Source of the DNA: Betaproteobacteria bacterium SCN1
Lineage (GTDB): Bacteria; Pseudomonadota; Gammaproteobacteria; Burkholderiales; Thiobacillaceae
Reading direction: 5' to 3'
Assembly: GCA_008923315.1 (NCBI GenBank)
Contig: WBSF01000008.1
Location: forward strand, 310,001 to 374,000
DNA length: 64,000 nucleotides
The notes beneath the pieces are model-generated. The model saw nothing but the letters and a program-made list of their open reading frames with translations, was not told the origin of the DNA and searched no databases. Both the position numbers and the translations under genes were made by a program. This document shows, one piece after another, positions 13,160 through 58,190 of this stretch. The first letter of the stretch is position 1, and each line of letters starts with the position of its first letter.

Positions 13160-14623
13160 ATGACACCCAGACTGAAATCCTTGAGCGTTTCGCTCGCTGT
13201 CGCGGCAGGCCTCGCCCTGCCGTCGACCGCATCGAACGCCGCGTCCGACTGGATGAACGACTATTTCAACTCGGCCGGCGCGGGCCTCAACGTCACGCCA
13301 TCGGCCGTATACGAATCCCAGAGCCAGACCACGATGTCCCTCGGCGGTTTCGCATACCGCGCACCGCAACGTGCCACGCAGTTTTTCAGCTTCTCGCCGC
13401 CCGGCTACAAGGCCGGCTGCGGCGGGATCGATGCCTGGCTGGGGGCTTACGGCTTCGTCAACATGGACCAGTTCGTCGCGGCGCTGCGGAATATCGGACA
13501 GAACGCCATCGGGTACTTCTTCCAGCTTGCGCTCAAGACGATGGCCCCGGAGATCGACGGTCTGCTGACGGACCTCTCCAAGACGATGAACGGGCTGAAC
13601 CAGTTCCAGATCAGCAGTTGCCAGGCAATCAAGCAGTTCGTGGGAACGACCCCGGACACACGGAATATGGACATGGAGCAACGCGCGCAGGTTTTCGGCT
13701 CCGCGCTCACGGGTTCCTATGGATCGTTCTTCAATGCCCAGAACGACACGCAAACCGACCCTGCCAAGATGCAGGCTGCCTATGCCGCGGGCTGCGCGGT
13801 GAATGCCTCGATCTGCCAGGATTCAAGCGGCAAGCCTATCCTCAAGAACAACTTCAACCTGGTCTTCGATGCCCTTGATCGCGCGGGAGGGTATTCGCAA
13901 GAGGAGATCGAGCTTTACATCTCCCTGTTTGGTACGGTGACTTTCCTTCAGAACACGAGCGACCTGTCCAGCGGATTCACGACGGAGTATTTCAAGCCCA
14001 CGATCACCTGGGAGGATTTCCTGGGCCCGCTCACGGGTACCCACACGATGAAGATCAGGGAATGTCCGTCAGGCTCGGACTGCCTGCCCTACGCATCGGC
14101 GAACGATGAAGGCACGCCCAGAACGACGACCGGCATGACGGCGATCGTCTACGACCAGCTGCACAAACTGAAAGACGCGATCGTCAACCGGACCGCTCTG
14201 ACCGACCCCAAGGCGTTGCAGATCATCGCCATGACCAGCACGCCGATCTACCAGATGATCGCCCAGGCGGTTCACTCCGGCCGGGGATCGACGATCGTCG
14301 CCGATCGCATCATCGACGGCTTTTCCGAGGTCATTGCGACCGAGATCGCTTTCCGCCAGATGCAGGACATCAGCCGTGAGGTCGAGGATGCCCTGAACAA
14401 GACGAAAGCCGTCTCGGTCAAAGCCGATGTCCGGGCAATTGAGGATTTCCACCAAAGCCTGATCGGTGCCCGAAACGTGGCCATCCAGATGTACGCCCTC
14501 AAGCAGGAAGACGCCGGCCGGAAAATGCAGAACATCACGATGATGCTGGATTTCCAGCGGCAGATGTACACCAGCCTCGGACCACGGCTGACCTCCAACG
14601 TAGAGTTCGGCAAGGCGATGTAA
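13160..14623 (+). CDS. traH: TraH pilus assembly protein
   Basis: 487 residues, full length for the family. Signal peptide ending near SNAAS, then the TraH opening DWMNDYFNSAGAGLNVTP and FAYRAPQRATQFFSFSPPGYKAGCGGIDAW. A C-terminal coiled-coil-like region (about residues 390-470) contains RKMQNITMMLDFQRQMY. TraH works in the outer membrane and periplasm with TraF and TraW. It starts 14 bases after traF and ends directly before traG. Confidence 0.96.
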   Translation: MTPRLKSLSVSLAVAAGLALPSTASNAASDWMNDYFNSAGAGLNVTPSAVYESQSQTTMSLGGFAYRAPQRATQFFSFSPPGYKAGCGGIDAWLGAYGFVNMDQFVAALRNIGQNAIGYFFQLALKTMAPEIDGLLTDLSKTMNGLNQFQISSCQAIKQFVGTTPDTRNMDMEQRAQVFGSALTGSYGSFFNAQNDTQTDPAKMQAAYAAGCAVNASICQDSSGKPILKNNFNLVFDALDRAGGYSQEEIELYISLFGTVTFLQNTSDLSSGFTTEYFKPTITWEDFLGPLTGTHTMKIRECPSGSDCLPYASANDEGTPRTTTGMTAIVYDQLHKLKDAIVNRTALTDPKALQIIAMTSTPIYQMIAQAVHSGRGSTIVADRIIDGFSEVIATEIAFRQMQDISREVEDALNKTKAVSVKADVRAIEDFHQSLIGARNVAIQMYALKQEDAGRKMQNITMMLDFQRQMYTSLGPRLTSNVEFGKAM

Positions 14624-17485
14624 ATGGACACCATCTACGCCTTCTGGGACGCCGCCCAGATCAAGTACGTTCTGGATTCCGTGGCGATCATGACCTCGAT
14701 GAGCGATTATCTGGGGCTCATGAAGGTGTTTGCGATCTTCGGGCTGTTTGTTGCGGTCACGATGACCTTCGTGAAAGCGCGAGGCGAGGAAGCCGCGATC
14801 TACATGCTGATGCTGGCAATCTGGTATGGCGGCCTCTTCCTTCCGAAAAAGGACGTTGTCATTCAGGACGTTGCGGGTGGATCCGGCACCTACACGGTAG
14901 CCAATGTTCCGCTCGGCCTGGCGGTGTTCGCCAGTGCGGAGAGCCACATCGGCTACTGGCTGACGCGAGTCAGCGAGACGGTGTTCGCGCTGCCCAACGA
15001 CATCTCTTTCCAGAAAACCGGCTTCATGTTCGGCGCACGGGCGATTAGAGACCGAATGAACGTCCGCTTCTACGATCCTAACCTGGTCAGCTCGCTGACC
15101 AATCTGACCAAGGACTGCATCTACCCTGAGCTGAACAACAACGCCTCTTTTTTTAACCAGATCATGCAGTCGGGCGACATATGGGCCGACGTCGGCCCCC
15201 AGATGAATCCCGGGCTGCTGGTGCAGGTCTACGACAGCGCCGCGGGCCAGTACAAGGTCGTAGGCTGCGATCAAGCCTGGTCGTACATCGACACCCAGAT
15301 CAACCCGCACGTATCGAATGACATCCTTCCACGGCTTGGCCGGATGCTGAATCCGACCGAGACTTCCTCCTCAGCCGCCTCCGCCCTCGTCGCGGCCCAG
15401 CTTCCGGTGGCTGACAATTTCATCTTTGGGGTCAGCCAATCTGCGCAGGACAGTATCAAGCAGGCAGCGATGATCAACCTGCTGTCCGATTCGACGGTTT
15501 TTGTACCGCAGATGATCGGTGACACGACGTCGGCCCAGGTGGCCCTGTCGACGGCCATGGCCACGTCGGCCGCCAACAGCAGCTATCGGACGATGGCCAA
15601 GGTGGCCGAGTCCTCGATGCCACTCATCCGGAATGCCATCCATATCGTCATCCTGGCGCTCTTCCCGATCGTGATGCTGCTGATCATTGCCGCCGGCTCA
15701 AAAGGCGGGCTGGTGCTCAAGACGTATCTGATGGCTCTACTGTGGATCAATCTGTGGGCCCCCATCTACGCGGCGCTGAACTTCTTCACGAGCTGGTATG
15801 CCACGCTTGGTGCAAACGCGGCCGTAGGTAGCATGAACTACCTGTCCTATGCCAGCCACCAGGCTCTCAACCATTCGATGATCTCCGATCAGGGCGTTGC
15901 GGGGATCCTGACGCTCTCCGTACCCGTCATCGCCTACATGCTGACGAACGTTAGTGCAGCGTCATTCACCAGTGTCATCTCGGGCGTCATGGCACCGGCA
16001 AACGCTTCGGCCCAGTCGGCCGGTAGCCAGGTCGGCATGGGCAATTCGTCCGTGGGGAACACGCAATGGGGCAATGTGACGATGGGGAACTGGAGCTGGG
16101 ACAACAAATCCGGCAACCAGTGGAATACCGCACCCAGCATGACCTCCGGTGCACCAGTCAGCCGCCGCGTGGAAAACGACGGCGCGTTCATTTCCACGTT
16201 CGGTAACGGTAACGCCGTCATGGATCGTTCCGGGACCGTGTCGGATCTGGGCGTGGTCTCCGGCGTGGCCAGCACGGCCGTCGCAAGCCAGGCGCAGGCG
16301 CTCTCGCGGACCAGCTACCAGCGCGCCAGCGAGGCCTCGGCCGCGCGAGCGGAGTCGCTTGCGGCTGCTTATGACCAGGCGCGCTCCTTCCTGCGTGCGG
16401 CCGGCTCGTCGACCAGTGTGGGCGCGGATGCCGGCGTCAACAACATATCGAACTTTGCGCGGTCTTACGAGGACGCCATGAATACCGCTGCGAAATGGGA
16501 TGCGGGCATCAAGCTGACCGATTCACAGAGATTCCAGATAGTTTCTGCAGCGTCGTTTGGGGCAGGTATTCCGGGCGTTATTGGCGCGCAATTAAAAGCT
16601 TCAGGCATATCCGATAGTCAAATACAAGCTACTTACGATTCAGCGCGGCAGTACGCGGAATCCTCCGGCTTCAAAGATCAGCTCAGCCAAGCCCAGGGCT
16701 TCAGCAATACGCTGGCAACTAGTACCGGCAGCGAATCCAGCCGCCGTGCCGCGAGCGAGATCCGGGCAAGCCTGTCCGATGCCGAGCGGGCCGAGCAGAC
16801 GCAGCGGGTGGCGCTGTCTCAGGCAGAGTCCTACGACAGGGTGGCAAGCGAGGTGCAGTCCGGCGAAGGGCGCGCTCAGGCAAACCTGGCCAACTACGTC
16901 ACCGCCCAGCTCGGCGGTGCGGCGAGGGCGAATGCCGCCCTGGGCGCACGCGATACGGCCGGCCAACTCGAACTGGTCAATGGCATGGTCCGCGACTGGG
17001 TCAAAGACCAGGCCGGGCTGATGAAACAGGGCGACAGTAGTGCGAATGCAGGCCTGGAGCCGGCCGCGAAGCTCTCGGTGCCCTCATCCGATGCCGCTCC
17101 GGATGACTTTTATTCGGGTGCGGCCACCGGCGTCGGCGAGGCCTACATGGCGGACAAGGCCCGCGTACCAGGCAGTCCCCTTTCCGGGCCTGCCATTCAA
17201 CTGGATCGGGATGGCGACGGCGGACAGCCCGGGCAGACCGTCACACCGGCCATCGTCGAGCGCGCTGCCGCCGCCGGCGCGAAATCGGCAGGAACGGGGC
17301 TCGACGATGGGCGCGGAGCGGCTGATTCAGGCCGGAAGAACGTTGCGGGCGACGTTCAGGAGGAGACGGAGAATCCCAACATCATTATCCGTGCCGGGGC
17401 AAACGCGTTCGCTGGGGGCAAGCCGCAGGATGGGAATCCCGCGGCTGAGAAGAAGAATACGGGAGGGGCTTCCGGAGAGTGGTGA
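14624..17485 (+). CDS. traG: TraG mating-pair stabilisation and entry-exclusion protein
   Basis: 953 residues with the expected two-part layout. The N-terminal half has membrane segments (around residues 30-75, 335-385 and 420-450) and is the pilus-assembly part. The C-terminal half (from about residue 480) is a long, alanine/serine/glutamine-rich periplasmic domain with coiled-coil character, which in F-like systems contacts TraN-stabilised mating pairs and entry-exclusion protein. The start adjoins the traH stop. It ends the plus-strand transfer operon; the downstream genes are convergent. Confidence 0.95.
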   Translation: MDTIYAFWDAAQIKYVLDSVAIMTSMSDYLGLMKVFAIFGLFVAVTMTFVKARGEEAAIYMLMLAIWYGGLFLPKKDVVIQDVAGGSGTYTVANVPLGLAVFASAESHIGYWLTRVSETVFALPNDISFQKTGFMFGARAIRDRMNVRFYDPNLVSSLTNLTKDCIYPELNNNASFFNQIMQSGDIWADVGPQMNPGLLVQVYDSAAGQYKVVGCDQAWSYIDTQINPHVSNDILPRLGRMLNPTETSSSAASALVAAQLPVADNFIFGVSQSAQDSIKQAAMINLLSDSTVFVPQMIGDTTSAQVALSTAMATSAANSSYRTMAKVAESSMPLIRNAIHIVILALFPIVMLLIIAAGSKGGLVLKTYLMALLWINLWAPIYAALNFFTSWYATLGANAAVGSMNYLSYASHQALNHSMISDQGVAGILTLSVPVIAYMLTNVSAASFTSVISGVMAPANASAQSAGSQVGMGNSSVGNTQWGNVTMGNWSWDNKSGNQWNTAPSMTSGAPVSRRVENDGAFISTFGNGNAVMDRSGTVSDLGVVSGVASTAVASQAQALSRTSYQRASEASAARAESLAAAYDQARSFLRAAGSSTSVGADAGVNNISNFARSYEDAMNTAAKWDAGIKLTDSQRFQIVSAASFGAGIPGVIGAQLKASGISDSQIQATYDSARQYAESSGFKDQLSQAQGFSNTLATSTGSESSRRAASEIRASLSDAERAEQTQRVALSQAESYDRVASEVQSGEGRAQANLANYVTAQLGGAARANAALGARDTAGQLELVNGMVRDWVKDQAGLMKQGDSSANAGLEPAAKLSVPSSDAAPDDFYSGAATGVGEAYMADKARVPGSPLSGPAIQLDRDGDGGQPGQTVTPAIVERAAAAGAKSAGTGLDDGRGAADSGRKNVAGDVQEETENPNIIIRAGANAFAGGKPQDGNPAAEKKNTGGASGEW

Positions 17486-46153: not shown

Positions 46154-48526
46154 TCACACGATGAGCTGTTTCGCCAATGCGACCTCGATGCTGTCCCCGG
46201 ACTGGTTAAGCACGTCCAGACCGGAGTCCGGCATGTCGCCCGACGTCGATTGCGATACCGCGATCTTCTTCGCCATCAACTCCAGACATGCGGTCTGCGC
46301 CGTTCGGGCATAGCCGTAGAAATTCACGTTCACATCCTCCGTCTGCCCGATCCGCCAGGAGCGGCGCGAGGCCTGCTGGAGCGTGTAGACGTTGTAGCCG
46401 GTCTGCATGAAGCCGATGGTCGGAAATTCCAGCATATCCAGGCCGGTCTTGACGAGTTCTGGATTCGTGATGACGACGTCGACCCCGCGATCCACCTGCT
46501 CGAACAGCCAGTCTTCCCGCTTCTCGGCCTTCACGCTGGCCCGCAGCACCGCCACCCGGAATCCTTCAGTGGCGAGTAGACGCTGCATGCGCGCGGTTGT
46601 GTCGCGCGTGCCGGTGTAGGTCGCATAGGTCAGCACCCGTCGGCCCTGTCGTTTCTCACGCCTGCAGCGCTCGATGAGGATCTTCTCCTTTGGGCTCGGC
46701 TCATCGCCCAGAATGGCCGGGACATAGGCCAACTGAGCCCGTGAACGGGGATGGACGACGCGCTCTTCACGGAAACAGCAATCCGGCCAGGCCAGCAAGG
46801 TGTTCAGCACCACGCCGAGCAAGGTCTTGTCGCCTTTGCAAAGCGCTGCTTTCAGTTCAGCCTTCAGCGTGTGCATCAGTTCCTCATACCGGCTGGCCAT
46901 GTCGGCCGTCATTTCCACTTCCTCGTAGAACTCATCGTAGGGCGGCAGAATCCCCTGCCCCAGATCCCTCAGCTTCAGGAATACCGTGATGGGCACCACG
47001 TAGCGCATGATGCCCTTCGGGCCGAACCCTGGGCCCTTGGAAGTATGGTGCGTGATGGATTTACCCCTCGCCGTGCGGTGAGAGGTGGCGCTGCCTTCCT
47101 TGTAGATGTCCTTCAGGATGCCATGCTGACGCATGAACTCCATCGATGCCGTGCCCAGGGTATTGCGATTGTTGTATCCGAAACCGTCCTCGATCATCAT
47201 GGTCGGATTCAGCCGGTGCAACAGATAGAACAAATCGTCGGCATAGCCGCCCATCAGGGTACCGGTCAGCAGCAGAATTTTCTGGCACTTGCGCGCCAGA
47301 ACACCCATCGCCTGTCCCTGGGCCGAACCTTCGTTCTTGTACTCGTGCCCCTCATCGACGATCAAGGTTCCGAAATAGCCCTGTGGCAGATACCGCTTGA
47401 TGAACTCCGTAGGCTGGTACCCGCCTTGCCCGAAGGCAAACTCCATTCTGGCCATGCCGCGCTCCATGCGCTTCGCCTGCCGGTCGCTGAACACCAGTTC
47501 GCCCTCTTCGTTCAGCAGATTGATGAACTCGAAGACGTTGTCCTCCAGCATCCCTGCCAGCATGTCCACACCGAACTGGCTGACCAGCTTCTCTGCAGTC
47601 TTGTCTCCGATTGAGGGGATCTGCTTCAGGTTCTCCAACAGCATGTCGCGCTGATCCCGCCGCTCGCCGGTACGCGACACCAGAGTCCAAAGGCGTTCGC
47701 CGCAGGACCGGCTCGTTTCCTCGACCCTGCCGTCGATCCAGCACGTGCCGCGCACGGTGTTTCCGCAATGCTGACGGTTCTTGTTGAGGTACGCTTCGGC
47801 GAACCTGGCCCGCAGGGGCTTCAGATCGTCGTCAAGAATGACGCCGCCGCACGCCGGGCAGACGGCATAACGCCCGGATTCGCACGCCTCGCCTTCGCCG
47901 AAGCTCATCGAGCGAACGGCAAATGCCGGCAGCCAATTGAAGCCCATCCGCATCCGGACGCGCCCCAGGACGAAGAATTCTGGAACGGACGGCTGTTCCC
48001 GCATGGCGCGGATTTCGAGCAGCTTCTTGAGGGTATCCGGGCCGTTGAGGATCCAGACCCGCGCACCAGGAACCGTTGCCTTGATCTCACGCCGCCACTT
48101 GTAAACCAGGTGCGGGGGAGAAATCACCAATGTGCGTCGATATCCTTCCTCGTGCAGGATGGCGGCCGCTGCAATGGCCATCATGGTCTTGCCTGTGCCC
48201 ATCTCGGCGTTGAGGATGGCAGCAGGCTCGTCCTCGTCGATCAGCAGCCGTGCAATCGCCTGTACGGCCTCGGCCTGCTTATCGAATGGACGCCGATCGA
48301 GCGCGTCCATTACCGCAGCACGCCCCGGATCCGGGACGCCATCGTAGATCGGAGGGTTCTGACGCTGTACAGCCGCCAGCAGCCCGTCACCAAAATCAGC
48401 GATGAACTGGCTCAGCGGGATGACTTCGACTCCCCTGCTTTCAAGCCCCTGCACGACGATATCTCCGGCGAGCTCGCCGCCGGCGTCGATGCAGGCCCCG
48501 GGGGTAGTTGAAATGGTTGTGCTCAC
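46154..48526 (-). CDS. SNF2/superfamily II helicase with a zinc-binding insertion
   Basis: 790 residues from a GTG with AAGGAG seven bases before it. Walker A in NAEMGTGKTMMAIA at about residue 109, motif II DEGHEYKN near 395, motif III LLTGTLMGG near 420, and C-terminal helicase motifs (VLTYATYTGTRD, SRRSWRIGQTEDVNV) near 660-750. Between the lobes is a cysteine-rich insertion (YAVCPACGG ... HCGNTVRGTC ... RSCGERLW). Similar helicases sit in conserved blocks of SPI-7/PFGI-1-like ICEs. Probably aids replication or protection of the element. Its leader carries a Shine-Dalgarno-sequestering repeat. Confidence 0.9.
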   Translation of the reverse strand: MSTTISTTPGACIDAGGELAGDIVVQGLESRGVEVIPLSQFIADFGDGLLAAVQRQNPPIYDGVPDPGRAAVMDALDRRPFDKQAEAVQAIARLLIDEDEPAAILNAEMGTGKTMMAIAAAAILHEEGYRRTLVISPPHLVYKWRREIKATVPGARVWILNGPDTLKKLLEIRAMREQPSVPEFFVLGRVRMRMGFNWLPAFAVRSMSFGEGEACESGRYAVCPACGGVILDDDLKPLRARFAEAYLNKNRQHCGNTVRGTCWIDGRVEETSRSCGERLWTLVSRTGERRDQRDMLLENLKQIPSIGDKTAEKLVSQFGVDMLAGMLEDNVFEFINLLNEEGELVFSDRQAKRMERGMARMEFAFGQGGYQPTEFIKRYLPQGYFGTLIVDEGHEYKNEGSAQGQAMGVLARKCQKILLLTGTLMGGYADDLFYLLHRLNPTMMIEDGFGYNNRNTLGTASMEFMRQHGILKDIYKEGSATSHRTARGKSITHHTSKGPGFGPKGIMRYVVPITVFLKLRDLGQGILPPYDEFYEEVEMTADMASRYEELMHTLKAELKAALCKGDKTLLGVVLNTLLAWPDCCFREERVVHPRSRAQLAYVPAILGDEPSPKEKILIERCRREKRQGRRVLTYATYTGTRDTTARMQRLLATEGFRVAVLRASVKAEKREDWLFEQVDRGVDVVITNPELVKTGLDMLEFPTIGFMQTGYNVYTLQQASRRSWRIGQTEDVNVNFYGYARTAQTACLELMAKKIAVSQSTSGDMPDSGLDVLNQSGDSIEVALAKQLIV

Positions 48527-48700
48527 TATGCGCTCCTTGAAAAATAAGGGGAGCGCACCTCCCCATAGGGAGGCGAACTCCCCTTGGGGTTGACGATGAA
48601 ATTCCAGGCCGGAAGGCCCGCCGTTTTCAGGAACTGAACGGCTTTGGTCGACGCGTTACGCTGCGCCAGGCTGGCCGATACTGTCGGCCAACAGTGAAAC
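48527..48700 (-). promoter_or_regulatory. Leader repeat, long form, upstream of the helicase gene
   Basis: TGCGCTCC (plus 48529-48536, containing the Shine-Dalgarno complement) pairs with GGAGCGCA (48550-48557). The same bases can instead form GGGGAG/CTCCCC (48548-48553/48559-48564), and a further GGGAG/CTCCC hairpin follows. Beyond lie the hairpin GCCGTT..TTCAG/CTGAACGGC (48620-48642) and a pseudoknot: stem GGCCGA/TCGGCC (48673-48678/48684-48689), loop TACTG pairing with CAGTG at 48692-48696. Confidence 0.75.
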
Positions 48701-49502: not shown

Positions 49503-50150
49503 CTATTGACCGTCGGCCTGCCGATGGATGGCGCTCACCCAGTCTGGATTGACCGTCGCCGATAGCGAACCGAAGCGGTAGACCGAAGTGATGCCGTTGT
49601 CGGCGCATTGCACGTCGACCAGGTCTGCCGGGCTTGCGGTTTCGGTGTCGAAATCGAGCGCAACAAAATCGAGCGGCTGGCTTGTGCATACCCACTGAAC
49701 GAGGCCGCCTTCGATTCCGATCACTGCCTGGATCGGCGGCCCGCTGCCGCCGTGGCTCTGCATGACACGCCCGGCAAGCTGCATGGCTGTCCTCAAGGCA
49801 CTTTCGCGGGCTGCCGGCTCTCCGAACGTGTCGGCCGCAAGCAGAAGCTCACACACCCGATGGGCGAGCCGATCGTTTTCCAGGGATTTGACGCTGGCGT
49901 CCTTGTCGGGCCATTCGCCCACCTCGCCGACTACCTTGAACTCCAGAACGTCTCCGGCATCACCGTCTTCCTCGTAGTCGTCATACAGCAATGGAACTTC
50001 GGGAGTGTCGTTCCATAGCGTGCAGTCTGAAAACATCGAGTCGGCCTTCTGAATGGCCTCTTCGGGGGTGGCTGAACTGATCCCCACGCGAACCACATGC
50101 GTGTAAGGCAGTTCGTACTCAACGATGAATTTACGGGTTGGTGTGCTCAT
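49503..50150 (-). CDS. Hypothetical ICE-block protein
   Basis: 215 residues with a strong AAGGAG site. Acidic overall. N-terminal part reads KFIVEYELPYTHVVRVGISS and SATPEEAIQKADSMF, a ferredoxin-like or SH3-like strand pattern typical of small phage-like modules; C-terminal part has VDVQCADNGITSVYRFG. No recognised family. It lies between the C5 methyltransferase and the 48748 gene. Confidence 0.7.
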   Translation of the reverse strand: MSTPTRKFIVEYELPYTHVVRVGISSATPEEAIQKADSMFSDCTLWNDTPEVPLLYDDYEEDGDAGDVLEFKVVGEVGEWPDKDASVKSLENDRLAHRVCELLLAADTFGEPAARESALRTAMQLAGRVMQSHGGSGPPIQAVIGIEGGLVQWVCTSQPLDFVALDFDTETASPADLVDVQCADNGITSVYRFGSLSATVNPDWVSAIHRQADGQ

Positions 50151-50400
50151 AGTGCGCTCCTTTCTGAAGTGAGGGAGCGCATCTCGCCCAAGGGGAGATG
50201 TACTCCCCAGGGGGTTGAATTACGATGGAATCCCGGCCCCTTTCGAGGCGTTCCGATTGCAGGGACCGATCGGATGCATTTCCGCTTGCGCCGCGGGAGC
50301 GGGCTGAGACTGCCAGCCAACAGTGAAACCCTGTCGAAGGCTACGTACCTTTCTCGAACCCGCGGCACCGGCGCCGCGGGTTCGAGAAAGGCCCCCCAAG
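50151..50400 (-). promoter_or_regulatory. Leader repeat, long form, upstream of the 49503 gene
   Basis: TGCGCTCC next to the ribosome site pairs with GGAGCGCA upstream, as in the helicase leader. A GGGGAG..CTCCCC hairpin follows. The pseudoknot stem here is GGCTG/CAGCC (50302-50306/50314-50318) with loop ACTG and partner CAGTG at 50321-50325. The far end carries a 19-base-arm palindrome, CCTTTCTCGAACCCGCGGC at 50348-50366 against 50373-50391, which may terminate the upstream methyltransferase transcript. Confidence 0.75.
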
Positions 50401-52441: not shown

Positions 52442-52975
52442 TCAGTAACCCAGACCGTTCTTCAGCTTCAGGCCTTGAATGACCTCGCTCATGGGCCGGG
52501 GATCAAAGTGGAAATCCAACTCCACATGGAAACCCCTGATGGCCACGTCGACCAGCTCGACGATCGGAATACAGCCGTATTCGGCACTCAGCATGTCGCC
52601 GTTGAGGCAGGCATAACCGAAGGCCTGCTCCACCCCACTCCCGTCTTGGTCCTTTTCAGTGATATACCAGTCGCTACCTCCAATGAAATAGTGAAGGTAG
52701 GCAATCGGGTCACGGACGTCCTGCTGCCCATGGGTTGATGGCATGGTGGTAATTCGACCATCCAGCTCGATCATCTTGTCGATGAAGAACTGACCCTCCT
52801 CGCCCAGCATGAGCTGCTCGACTGTGGTCGATTGCGCCACGTGCATGAAGTCCCGGATCCGGCTCAAAGCAGCCTGGCCTTTGGAAAGGCCGGGCCCTGC
52901 ATCGCGGGCCTGGGCGGTGGATGAGTGCGGTACGGCGACGGGCAAGCCGTCGTCAAACAATGAGATATTTCGCAT
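52442..52975 (-). CDS. Hypothetical ICE-block protein
   Basis: 177 residues from the ATG at 52975; GGAGG stands eight bases upstream. Soluble. N-terminal polar tail (VAVPHSSTAQARDAGPGLSK), a helical segment (ALSRIRDFMHVAQSTTVEQL), then a beta-rich region (FHVELDFHFDPRPMSEVIQG). The text ...IPIVELVDVAIRGFHVELDF suggests a stable alpha/beta domain. Not recognised. Between the DUF6094 methylase and the 51823 gene. Confidence 0.68.
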   Translation of the reverse strand: MRNISLFDDGLPVAVPHSSTAQARDAGPGLSKGQAALSRIRDFMHVAQSTTVEQLMLGEEGQFFIDKMIELDGRITTMPSTHGQQDVRDPIAYLHYFIGGSDWYITEKDQDGSGVEQAFGYACLNGDMLSAEYGCIPIVELVDVAIRGFHVELDFHFDPRPMSEVIQGLKLKNGLGY

Positions 52976-53030
52976 GATGGATTCCTCCTTGGAATAAATG
53001 CCGAAGGAATCCCCGCCTGGCGGGGATTCC
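52976..53030 (-). promoter_or_regulatory. Leader repeat with an explicit strand-exchange switch
   Basis: GGATTCC (52979-52985), complementary to the ribosome-site side GGAATCC, pairs with GGAATCC at 53006-53012. That same GGAATCC is also half of a near-perfect hairpin GGAATCCCCG/CGGGGATTCC (53006-53030). The two pairings exclude each other, so the ribosome site is either hidden or free. Sequence unlike the other copies, structure the same. Confidence 0.75.
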
Positions 53031-53060
53031 CGCACGGCGGTGGCTTAAAAATGAAATGGG

Positions 53061-54155
53061 TCAGCGAACTTTCACCACGTCCCCGTAATTGGGGCCGGCG
53101 GTGAAATCAATCGCCGTGATGCTCGGTACGAACTTGTCGGTCAGGGTACGAATTTCGGTAAATTGCCCCTGCCCTCGTTCCTCATAGGTCACGCTTACAT
53201 CCTTGTCCTTGAAGGTATCCCCCTTGATGAGGAGCCTTCTTCCGGATCTCGATTCGACCACACCGGAAATCTGCCCGGCAGCCAGCGCGAGCGCCAGATG
53301 CCAGTCCGAAAGATCCCGAAGCGGTCTGCGAATCACGCCGTCGACGAGACCGAAGTGCCGGCGGAACTGCGGCCACAGGGTATGCCCCCGCAGACGCGCC
53401 AACTCCGCGCTCAACTGCGCACCATCGATCCGCTGCGCGACGAATCTGAACTCCATGTCGCGCGCCTCGGGCACGTAATAGGGCTCTCCACTCCACGATA
53501 CCGGCAGGACTGGCGTGGATTCGCCGTTCCCGCAGGCCTCCAGGCTTGCCTGCGCCTTGGGGTCGCCCCCTTCGGAGTGTCGCCGGATGCCGAATACGAC
53601 ACACTGCTTGAACCGCTCCTCGGGGGCCATGAACACCTGAACCCGCTCGAAATTGCGGGCAATCATCGCCGCGAATTCCTTGCGCAAGGCGTAGTACGGC
53701 ACGATCAGAACCATGACCCCGCCATATTGCAGCCAGGGCAGCGTCTTGCGGAAGAACAGGACTTCCAGACGCTCGCGCTTTGTGTCGCCAGTGGAAGCCT
53801 TGTCGCTCACCAGATTGCCATAGGGCGGATTGAGGAACAACAAGCTTTGCGAACGCCAGGACATGAACACGTCGTTCACGTCGCTGTGGGCGACCTGGCC
53901 AATGATCGTCTTGGCATGCCAGGCGCGTTCGGGATCGAACTCAATCCCAAACGACTCGACCGCCGCGCCGGCCTCCTGCAAATGGTTCACGCATTCGGCC
54001 AGTGCCACACCTTCGCCGCAGCACGGATCCAGAATGCGAATCAGGCTGCCGTCGATATCGAGGCCCTGGAGGAGCCTCCCAAGCGTGACCTCGTCGGTCG
54101 GAAAATACCCATTCTTGATGAAATTGCGGGCAAGACGCTGGAACACGAGAGCCAT
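53061..54155 (-). CDS. DUF6094-type N6 DNA methyltransferase
   Basis: 364 residues from the ATG at 54155, which overlaps the upstream stop (TAATG). Motif I ILDPCCGEGVALAEC at about residue 41 and motif IV LFLNPPYG near residue 107, then KTLPWLQYGGVMVLIVPYYAL. The text RILDPCCGEG and FQRLARNFIKNGYFPTDE matches DUF6094 proteins of ICEs. It probably methylates adenine; a protective rather than restricting role is inferred because no nuclease is adjacent. Confidence 0.88.
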   Translation of the reverse strand: MALVFQRLARNFIKNGYFPTDEVTLGRLLQGLDIDGSLIRILDPCCGEGVALAECVNHLQEAGAAVESFGIEFDPERAWHAKTIIGQVAHSDVNDVFMSWRSQSLLFLNPPYGNLVSDKASTGDTKRERLEVLFFRKTLPWLQYGGVMVLIVPYYALRKEFAAMIARNFERVQVFMAPEERFKQCVVFGIRRHSEGGDPKAQASLEACGNGESTPVLPVSWSGEPYYVPEARDMEFRFVAQRIDGAQLSAELARLRGHTLWPQFRRHFGLVDGVIRRPLRDLSDWHLALALAAGQISGVVESRSGRRLLIKGDTFKDKDVSVTYEERGQGQFTEIRTLTDKFVPSITAIDFTAGPNYGDVVKVR

Positions 54156-54388: not shown

Positions 54389-54630
54389 GATGCCTCCAGA
54401 AATATCAGGAACGCACCATTCCCTGAGGGGAAAGTACGCCCCAAGGGTTGAAGTGAGTAATGGAATCCCGACCTCTTTCGAGGCATTCCGATTACAGGGA
54501 CTGATCGGACGTTGGTGACGCACTACGCGGCGTCGGGACGAGCTGAAGACTGTCAGCCAGCAGTGACTCTTGGCAAGGCAGAGCCTTTCTCCAGCGCTCC
54601 GAGAGCGTTCGAGAAAAGCCCCCGGAGGGG
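54389..54630 (-). promoter_or_regulatory. Leader repeat, long form, upstream of the 54155 gene
   Basis: Near the start TGCGTTCC faces GGAGGCA with one bulge and one G-U pair. GGGGAAAGT..ACGCCCC-type stems follow. Pseudoknot stem GCTGA/TCAGC (54542-54546/54553-54557), loop AGACTG, partner CAGTG at 54561-54565. Far end: CTTTCTC...GAGAAAAG hairpin. Confidence 0.65.
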
Positions 54631-54640
54631 CAAGGTGACG

Positions 54641-55730: not shown

Positions 55731-55795
55731 GATGTGCTCCTTGAAATTTACGGGGAGCACCTCCCCACAGGGAGTTTGTCTCCCCAGGGGGTGTT
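55731..55795 (-). promoter_or_regulatory. Leader repeat, short form, upstream of the 55146 gene
   Basis: GTGCTCC (55734-55740) pairs with GGAGCAC (55754-55760). Compared with the helicase leader, the arm TGCGCTCC has become GTGCTCC and the ribosome-site side GGAGCGCA has become GGAGCAC: a compensated change. The alternative hairpin GGGGAG-GTG-CTCCCC uses the same bases. Confidence 0.72.
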
Positions 55796-56058: not shown

Positions 56059-56235
56059 GTCGCTATTCCTTAAAGAGAAAGCGGGCTCGCATCCCCTTCG
56101 GGTATGCCCCGCAAGGGTTGATGTGTCTATTGAATTCCAGACCCGTAAGGGTCCGCCGTTTTCAGGAACTGAACGGCTTTCAAGGGCGATGCATTACGTG
56201 CATCGGTCGGACTGATACTGTCAGTCTACAGTGGA
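56059..56235 (-). promoter_or_regulatory. Leader repeat, long form, upstream of the 55825 gene
   Basis: The ribosome-site pairing is weaker here (CGCT with AGCG). The long part is well conserved: hairpin GCCGTT..CTGAACGGC, hairpin CGATGCA-TTACG-TGCATCG, and the pseudoknot with stem GACTGA/TCAGTC (56210-56215/56221-56226), loop TACTG and partner CAGTG at 56229-56233. It shares long identical runs with the leader at 57424. Confidence 0.7.
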
Positions 56236-56245
56236 ACGCGATGAA

Positions 56246-56752
56246 GTGAGTGGCTTATCCAGGTGGGCCATGGCATCTGGATACCCCACTCGTGGGGCGT
56301 GGAGGGATATGCGTGTTGCGGTAAAGATTCAACCCCTGCAGGTCTTCAACGAATGCGAAGCCGACGCGCCGCTAGAGGGGCCGGGCGCGAATTTCGATTG
56401 CGGTGGAGTCCGCAAAAGCCGTGACTGTTATGGCCGTCACAACCCAGGGGGAGAAATTTCAGCCGAGAAGGCTTGCCCGAGTCTTCTCGGGTAAGCCTTC
56501 TCGGTTGGTGGGCATATGGAAGACGGCATTTCAATCCGTCTCAGGAATGTGGCAAGCGGATGGGGAAGCATCCGTCGCCAATGTAACCCCCGGGTACCTG
56601 GGGAGGTAAAACCCGATCCGGTTCGAGGGGCTACCCGGACTAAAGGCAGTGCTTAGGGCACCAATCCCGCTGTACTCAGCGATCGAGAAACCGAGATCTT
56701 CACCTAAGGCTTGAGCCTTGGGTGAAAACCCCGACGGGGTTTTCTAGGGCTA
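56246..56752. other. Gene-poor segment with a 19-bp stem hairpin
   Basis: No convincing ORF. At 56463-56504 a hairpin has 19-base arms (CCGAGAAGGCTTGCCCGAG, loop TCTT) with one mismatch that is G-U on the plus strand but A-C on the minus strand, which favours a plus-strand RNA. Further GC-rich repeats follow to about 56690. A hairpin CTAAGGC-TTGA-GCCTTGG lies at 56703-56722. It could be an ncRNA, a replication origin or the oriT; nothing decides. Confidence 0.45.
56724..56744. terminator. Bidirectional terminator-like palindrome
   Basis: Stem GAAAACCCC/GGGGTTTTC with loop GAC, flanked by A and T runs on both sides, so it can act on either strand. It follows the 32-residue minus-strand ORF by nine bases. 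Confidence 0.7.
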
Positions 56753-57423: not shown

Positions 57424-57680
57424 GGTGCTCTCCTAAGAAATAAAAAAGGGAGCACGCGCCCCGGAGGGGAGTCGTAACTCCCCAAAGGGTGGTTGATGAA
57501 CAGCGATGAAATTCCAGACCCGGAAGGGTCCGCCGTTTTCAGGAACTGAACGGCATTCAAGGGCGATGCATTACGTGCATCGGTCGGACTGATACTGTCA
57601 GTCTACAGTGATACTCTTCAAGGCTGGAGCCTTTCTCCAACACGCATGCAGCGCGTTCGAGAAAGCCCCCAGAGGAGCTT
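57424..57680 (-). promoter_or_regulatory. Leader repeat, long form, upstream of the DUF3577 gene
   Basis: GTGCTC (57425-57430) pairs with GAGCAC (57450-57455). GGGGAGT..ACTCCCC hairpin next. Long part near-identical to the 56059 copy: CGATGCA/TGCATCG hairpin and pseudoknot stem GACTGA/TCAGTC (57587-57592/57598-57603) with loop TACTG and CAGTG at 57606-57610. Far end CTTTCTC...GAGAAAG hairpin. Confidence 0.75.
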
Positions 57681-57989: not shown

Positions 57990-58190
57990 ATTGAAGACCT
58001 CCACAAGAAAAAGCGGAGACCTGTTCCCGGTGCGGGTGAGAATCACCCGCTGGGTTGAGAAATGCTGCAATGAAATCCCGAGTTATTCAACTCGCCGTTT
58101 TCAGGGACTGAACGGCATTTAAAAGGCGTCTTTCGACAAAGGCCAGCACCTTACGGGTGCAAGACGGGCTGCGTGAGCCAACAAACTGCT
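57990..58190 (-). promoter_or_regulatory. Leader repeat, partly degenerate long form
   Basis: TCTCC faces GGAGG of the ribosome site. Strong stem GCGGGTGA/TCACCCGC. The hairpin GCCGTT..CTGAACGGC is kept with one change, but the pseudoknot loop and its partner are lost (GGCT/AGCC stem remains). Confidence 0.55.

Follow-up and report, generated by a model that had tools for sequence, protein, structure and literature searches.

The question raised by this locus is whether the short leader of a gene in a conjugative element can act as a switch that hides or exposes the ribosome-binding site. The window, which is the whole stretch of 64,000 nt that was analysed, is part of a 3.09-Mb genome and carries a conjugative element with genes for TraC, TraN, TraH, TraG, two integrases, a type III topoisomerase and the families DUF3275, DUF3577 and DUF6094. 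Two further DUF3275/DUF3577 loci are found in the same genome on contig C6 (near 13588-15215 and 162530-163724); these are probably two more conjugative elements of similar kind. On the minus strand of the window, 85 nt separate the DUF6094 gene from the gene of a 177-aa protein and form the leader considered here. The 177-aa protein has no sequence match in Pfam, NCBIfam or PDB, and no function is assigned to it by these comparisons. The annotation DUF2958, carried by one plasmid homologue, was rejected because it is not confirmed by Pfam.

An earlier note on this DNA had proposed that GGAATCC at 53006-53012 pairs either with GGATTCC at 53024-53030 in a hairpin or with GGATTCC at 52979-52985 over the ribosome site, and all three motifs lie at these positions on the plus strand. 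The hairpin pairing lies within a perfect inverted repeat of 12 bp (53006-53017 and 53019-53030) with a gap of 1 nt. The alternative pairing can be extended to 10 bp including one G-U pair (53012-53003 with 52988-52979) and covers the GGAGG of the Shine-Dalgarno (SD) sequence. The segments of the leader follow one another in the order 0-A-A'-A''-B-C (Table 1). They can form a hidden fold, made of 0:A'', A:A' and B:C, with an inner stem of 53033-53029 and 53024-53020 around the loop AAUC, or an open fold, made of A:B and A':A''. In the folding computation the two competing pairings exclude each other and one of them buries the SD sequence, as the note had it. Its picture of a two-structure switch was right in logic and incomplete in anatomy, and is thus partly supported: the competing pairings stand, whereas the third helix, formed by segment 0, was missed, and the states are unequal, with the hidden fold as the predicted ground state.

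Table 1. Features of the leader, its neighbouring genes and related leaders in the window.
Feature	Position	Strand	Remark
Gene of the 177-aa protein, predicted to be controlled	52442..52975	-	start at 52975
SD sequence AAGGAGG	52984..52990	-	
Segment C (GGAGGAATCC)	52979..52988	-	overlaps SD; partner of B in the SD-hidden fold
Segments A'' + B (GGCGGGGATTCC)	53006..53017	-	B (53012-53003) has A (SD open) or C (SD hidden) as its partner
Segments A + A' (GGAATCCCCGCC)	53019..53030	-	upstream arm of the 12-bp hairpin
Segment 0 (CCGCC)	53036..53040	-	partner of A'' (53017-53013) when the SD is hidden; predicted control point
DUF6094 putative methyltransferase gene, upstream neighbour	53061..54155	-	stop codon 20 nt before segment 0
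Putative paralogous switch leader, gene 46154-48526	48527..48592	-	strongest other copy
Putative paralogous switch leader, gene 49503-50150	50151..50221	-	
Putative paralogous switch leader, DUF3275 gene	55731..55795	-	without pseudoknot domain
Putative paralogous switch leader, DUF3577 gene	57424..57502	-	
R1 domain, six copies	48592-48649, 50221-50281, 54456-54516, 56125-56184, 57502-57561, 58066-58123	-	

Computed for the same leader, the hidden fold has an energy of -36.6 kcal/mol and the open fold one of -30.1 kcal/mol. The minimum-energy fold of the full leader is the two-hairpin fold with the SD sequence hidden, not the 12-bp hairpin, because segment 0 closes a hairpin over the upstream arm and so places the predicted ground state on the hidden side. 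Equilibrium folding of the growing transcript gives A:B a probability of 0.999 at 52999-52995 and B:C a probability of 0.95 once 52979 is out, and 0:A'' with A:A' (P1) forms ahead of A:B. Path barriers were estimated at 20 kcal/mol from P1 to A:B and at 16 kcal/mol from A:B to the hidden fold, heights at which one fold could be frozen. When 53040-53036 is occluded in silico, the prediction flips to A:B with the SD sequence mostly open; the pairing of the first three SD-core bases falls from 0.96-1.0 to about 0.22-0.25, and the last two SD bases are often caught in a small local hairpin of the predicted open fold. Changes in silico to segment 0 or to the tail of C open the SD sequence, and a change of B and C that restores B:C closes it. 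Occlusion of one upstream hexamer, scanned in 34 leaders, raised SD opening by at least 0.5 in only 2, and 103 of 470 shuffles did as well as their original leader. In several other leaders SD opening responds most to occlusion of CAACCC or a near variant, and many leaders are unresponsive. The control point is predicted to lie in segment 0 both in the leader of the 177-aa gene and in several others.

The shared-arm score of the leader is 23.5, which was reached by none of 300 shuffles of the leader upstream of the SD sequence in one run and by none of 20,000 in another. An energy version of the test gave no match in 3,000 shuffles, and none of 58 control genes of the same genome scores 19 or more (top 18.5). 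A looser scan over every possible start codon finds chance sites with weak SD sequences that score up to 21.5, so that proof comes from the comparative evidence and not from the shared-arm score alone. The folding energy of 101 nt has a z of -3.93, with none of 200 shuffles as good. The mRNA strand is not favoured in its use of G-U pairs; sense and antisense strands fold about equally well.

Orthologues of the 177-aa protein in four Thiobacillus relatives have 48-49% protein identity. Their leaders read CTTGCGGG-GAACATT-CCCGCAAG, then GGTGTTCC, then the SD sequence, then AACACC or AACGCC; the letters of A, B and C are all unlike those in the window, and the pairings are kept. That this leader shares almost no sequence with others, as had been claimed, is true of the variable arms, whereas the leader does align with those of the Thiobacillus orthologues and retains a GCGGG/CCCGC stem (the alignment held three orthologous leaders and a mis-cut fourth, and served only to view the shared stem). 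Leaders L031, L032, L063 and L066 follow the same plan with further letters; L048 fails it, and L030 is by its minimum-energy fold not of the hidden type. The fit of each leader's own arms was compared with that of arms swapped between leaders (swap test). Own arms fit better in 8 orthologous leaders, 5 of them first noticed by eye (z -4.15 for A:B and -3.66 for B:C). All relatives of the gene, taken unselected (30 tested of 65 non-redundant), gave z -3.84 (A:B) and -2.07 (B:C). Only 14 of the 65 have the two-hairpin fold, a share close to that of the controls (10 of 58); the leader therefore follows the type of element and not the gene. Inspection by eye found no such leader in the plasmid homologues L014-L018; most homologues, in plasmids and virus-like contigs, are without the switch.

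The same logic, as the earlier note had also supposed, is common to other leaders of the element (Table 1), and the orthologues keep it with different letters. A set of 38 leaders, partly picked by eye, gave z -9.35 (A:B) and -8.73 (B:C) in the 37 tested, against -1.33 and -0.05 in core-gene controls. Leaders of DUF3275 and DUF3577 genes were gathered by protein family alone and not by eye; 18 of the 25 have the two-hairpin fold, and the 22 tested gave z -5.29 (A:B) and -5.84 (B:C). Both pairings are thus kept through compensating changes; computation shows that they exclude each other, what energies they have and that they persist when the letters change.

Other inverted repeats are also present in this part of the element. 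A 19-bp near-perfect hairpin (CCTTTCTCGAACCCGCGG...) lies at 50348-50391 upstream of one long leader, and a 22-bp inverted repeat with 91% complementarity at 56460-56507 is intergenic between two leaders. At 54618-54631 and similar places, a terminator-like hairpin, GCCCC-GGGGGC-TTTTCTCGAA, opens at least one long leader, and others by eye, as if every gene unit began with a terminator.

Six other leaders in the window have a conserved RNA domain of about 60 nt just upstream (R1), which contains a pseudoknot between a loop AGUYCC and GGRAUU. The pseudoknot is backed by compensating changes (28 double-changed cells; 0 of 500 shuffles), and the domain has no match in Rfam. A model of R1 finds 6 copies in the genome, all inside the conjugative element; it matches 18 of the 117 genomes searched in the family, with up to 10 copies each, and 2 of 185 genomes in a sample of the class, the source genome among them. 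The leaders anchored on R1 form a set unselected for the switch: 97 matches left 85 that were used (the rest being weak or cut off), 81 with a start codon and 33 after removal of near-duplicates. The SD sequence is hidden behind two hairpins in 31 of these 33 (10 of 58 controls), a competing fold before the SD sequence is also present in 22 (7 of 58 controls), and the 30 with room for the swap test gave z -7.52 (A:B) and -5.52 (B:C). In related elements, the radC RNA (RF01754) is found directly upstream of a two-hairpin platform before DUF3577 genes (L153:1249-1397 and L169:2366-2511, one of the two in the source genome), where it ends about 90-95 nt before the start codon. Rfam gave no match to RF01754 in the window, in the leader of the 177-aa gene or in the DUF3577 leader of the window, and nothing credible over the whole window or over 46-59 kb. 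R1 has no match before the 177-aa gene either. The leader of this gene is the platform alone, and its lack of the pseudoknot domain makes it a simple test case.

Several other explanations of these data can be considered. The B:C hairpin might be a static block that just holds translation down until a passing ribosome or a factor in trans opens it, with A:B idle. Nearly all leaders have the hidden fold as their ground state, and barriers of 16-20 kcal/mol would freeze it, as such a block would require; the A:B complementarity, however, is as leader-specific as B:C and needless for a static block, which makes this explanation rather unlikely. It is improbable that the leader is a transcription attenuator, in which the A:B hairpin would be an intrinsic terminator or a stabiliser of the 3' end and the effect on the SD sequence secondary. 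T-rich stretches do follow B in 16 of 33 R1-anchored leaders and 5 of 8 orthologous leaders compared with 0 of 58 controls, but the Thiobacillus orthologues and about half of the R1-anchored leaders have no T tract, and the 12-bp hairpin itself is absent from the output of the terminator scan. Nor is a stable hairpin followed directly by a U tract found in the leader of the 177-aa gene, where the tail after B is GGCATTTATT and the T tract, itself interrupted, starts only behind GGC. Termination may be a function of the leaders with a T-rich tail, about half of them, and is a less likely one here.

Inverted repeats may also act at the DNA level, as single-stranded hairpins in conjugation or recombination, and the conjugation genes on the element and the nearly equal folding of the two strands would agree with this. 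Such a role is very improbable for repeats that pair, from one leader to the next, with the SD sequence at a constant position ahead of the start codon, and whose letters change together in A, B and C. A coincidence of G/C-rich repeats near the SD sequence can draw on the weak-SD chance sites of the all-starts scan; it is hardly credible with 0 of 20,000 shuffles and is already contradicted by the swap tests. Further candidates were tried and rejected. The SD motif TTCCAAGGAG is no better than chance as a family marker, and a CsrA-type reading (AAGGA in the loop of ATTCC/GGAAT) involves a hairpin that is not kept in orthologues. Another candidate for a general trigger was coupling to the stop codon of the upstream gene, 20 nt after which segment 0 begins; against it, no DUF6094 match lies near the orthologues L063 and L066.

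The leader of the 177-aa gene is probably a cis-acting translational switch on the mRNA, as the folding models and swap tests suggest. The fold with 0:A'' around A:A' and with B:C would bury the SD sequence, and the fold with A:B around A':A'' would leave it largely open; A imitates C, so that each could hold B. For the complete leader, the ground state is predicted to be the hidden fold, and the switch would be closed by default. The open fold is predicted to be more stable before the SD sequence is transcribed and again whenever segment 0 is occupied. The trigger may be a protein, a ribosome or an RNA domain further upstream that occupies segment 0, and the switch would then set translation in the cell. 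In other leaders of such elements, a folded RNA domain stands just upstream of the segment matching 0, and it is missing here. The letters differ between leaders, which argues against a single common antisense partner. Related elements repeat this logic in other letters, so that a real kind of gene switch is probable, and one so far undescribed in the sense that no report of such leaders was found in the open-access library searched or in Rfam 15.

On the best reading, conjugative elements have a family of modular leaders, of which this one is the member that lacks a domain. Such elements need to be silent at first and to express many genes at once later, and a private switch for each gene, built on one plan, would explain both. 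A more tentative proposal is that the leader is the sensor-less member of an undescribed class of modular switches of conjugative elements, with one platform, per-gene letters that would prevent cross-reaction, and interchangeable upstream domains (the radC RNA or the new AGUYCC/GGRAUU pseudoknot) that may act on segment 0 and co-switch many genes. Such a class would supply a downstream mechanism for the orphan radC RNA, and the present leader, free of any added domain, offers the simplest test of the platform by itself.

Translational expression platforms that hide the SD sequence are known from the erm/cat translational attenuators and many proteobacterial riboswitches. As in these systems, anti-SD and anti-anti-SD strands compete in the window leader and one fold hides the SD sequence. 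Unlike them, the leader has an SD-like upstream strand as the competitor, each leader of the present class has its own letters, and no conserved ligand-binding domain was found upstream of the platform by Rfam or the R1 model. Intrinsic-terminator attenuators of the trp type alternate hairpins of consecutive segments, as does the window leader, whose last segment is the SD sequence and which differs from them in having no proper U tract. The radC RNA (RF01754) is presented as a candidate cis-regulatory RNA of Proteobacteria in Weinberg et al. (2010, Genome Biol 11:R31, PMC2864571). Although absent by covariance model from the window and from the leader of the 177-aa gene, it adjoins the same two-hairpin platform in related elements.
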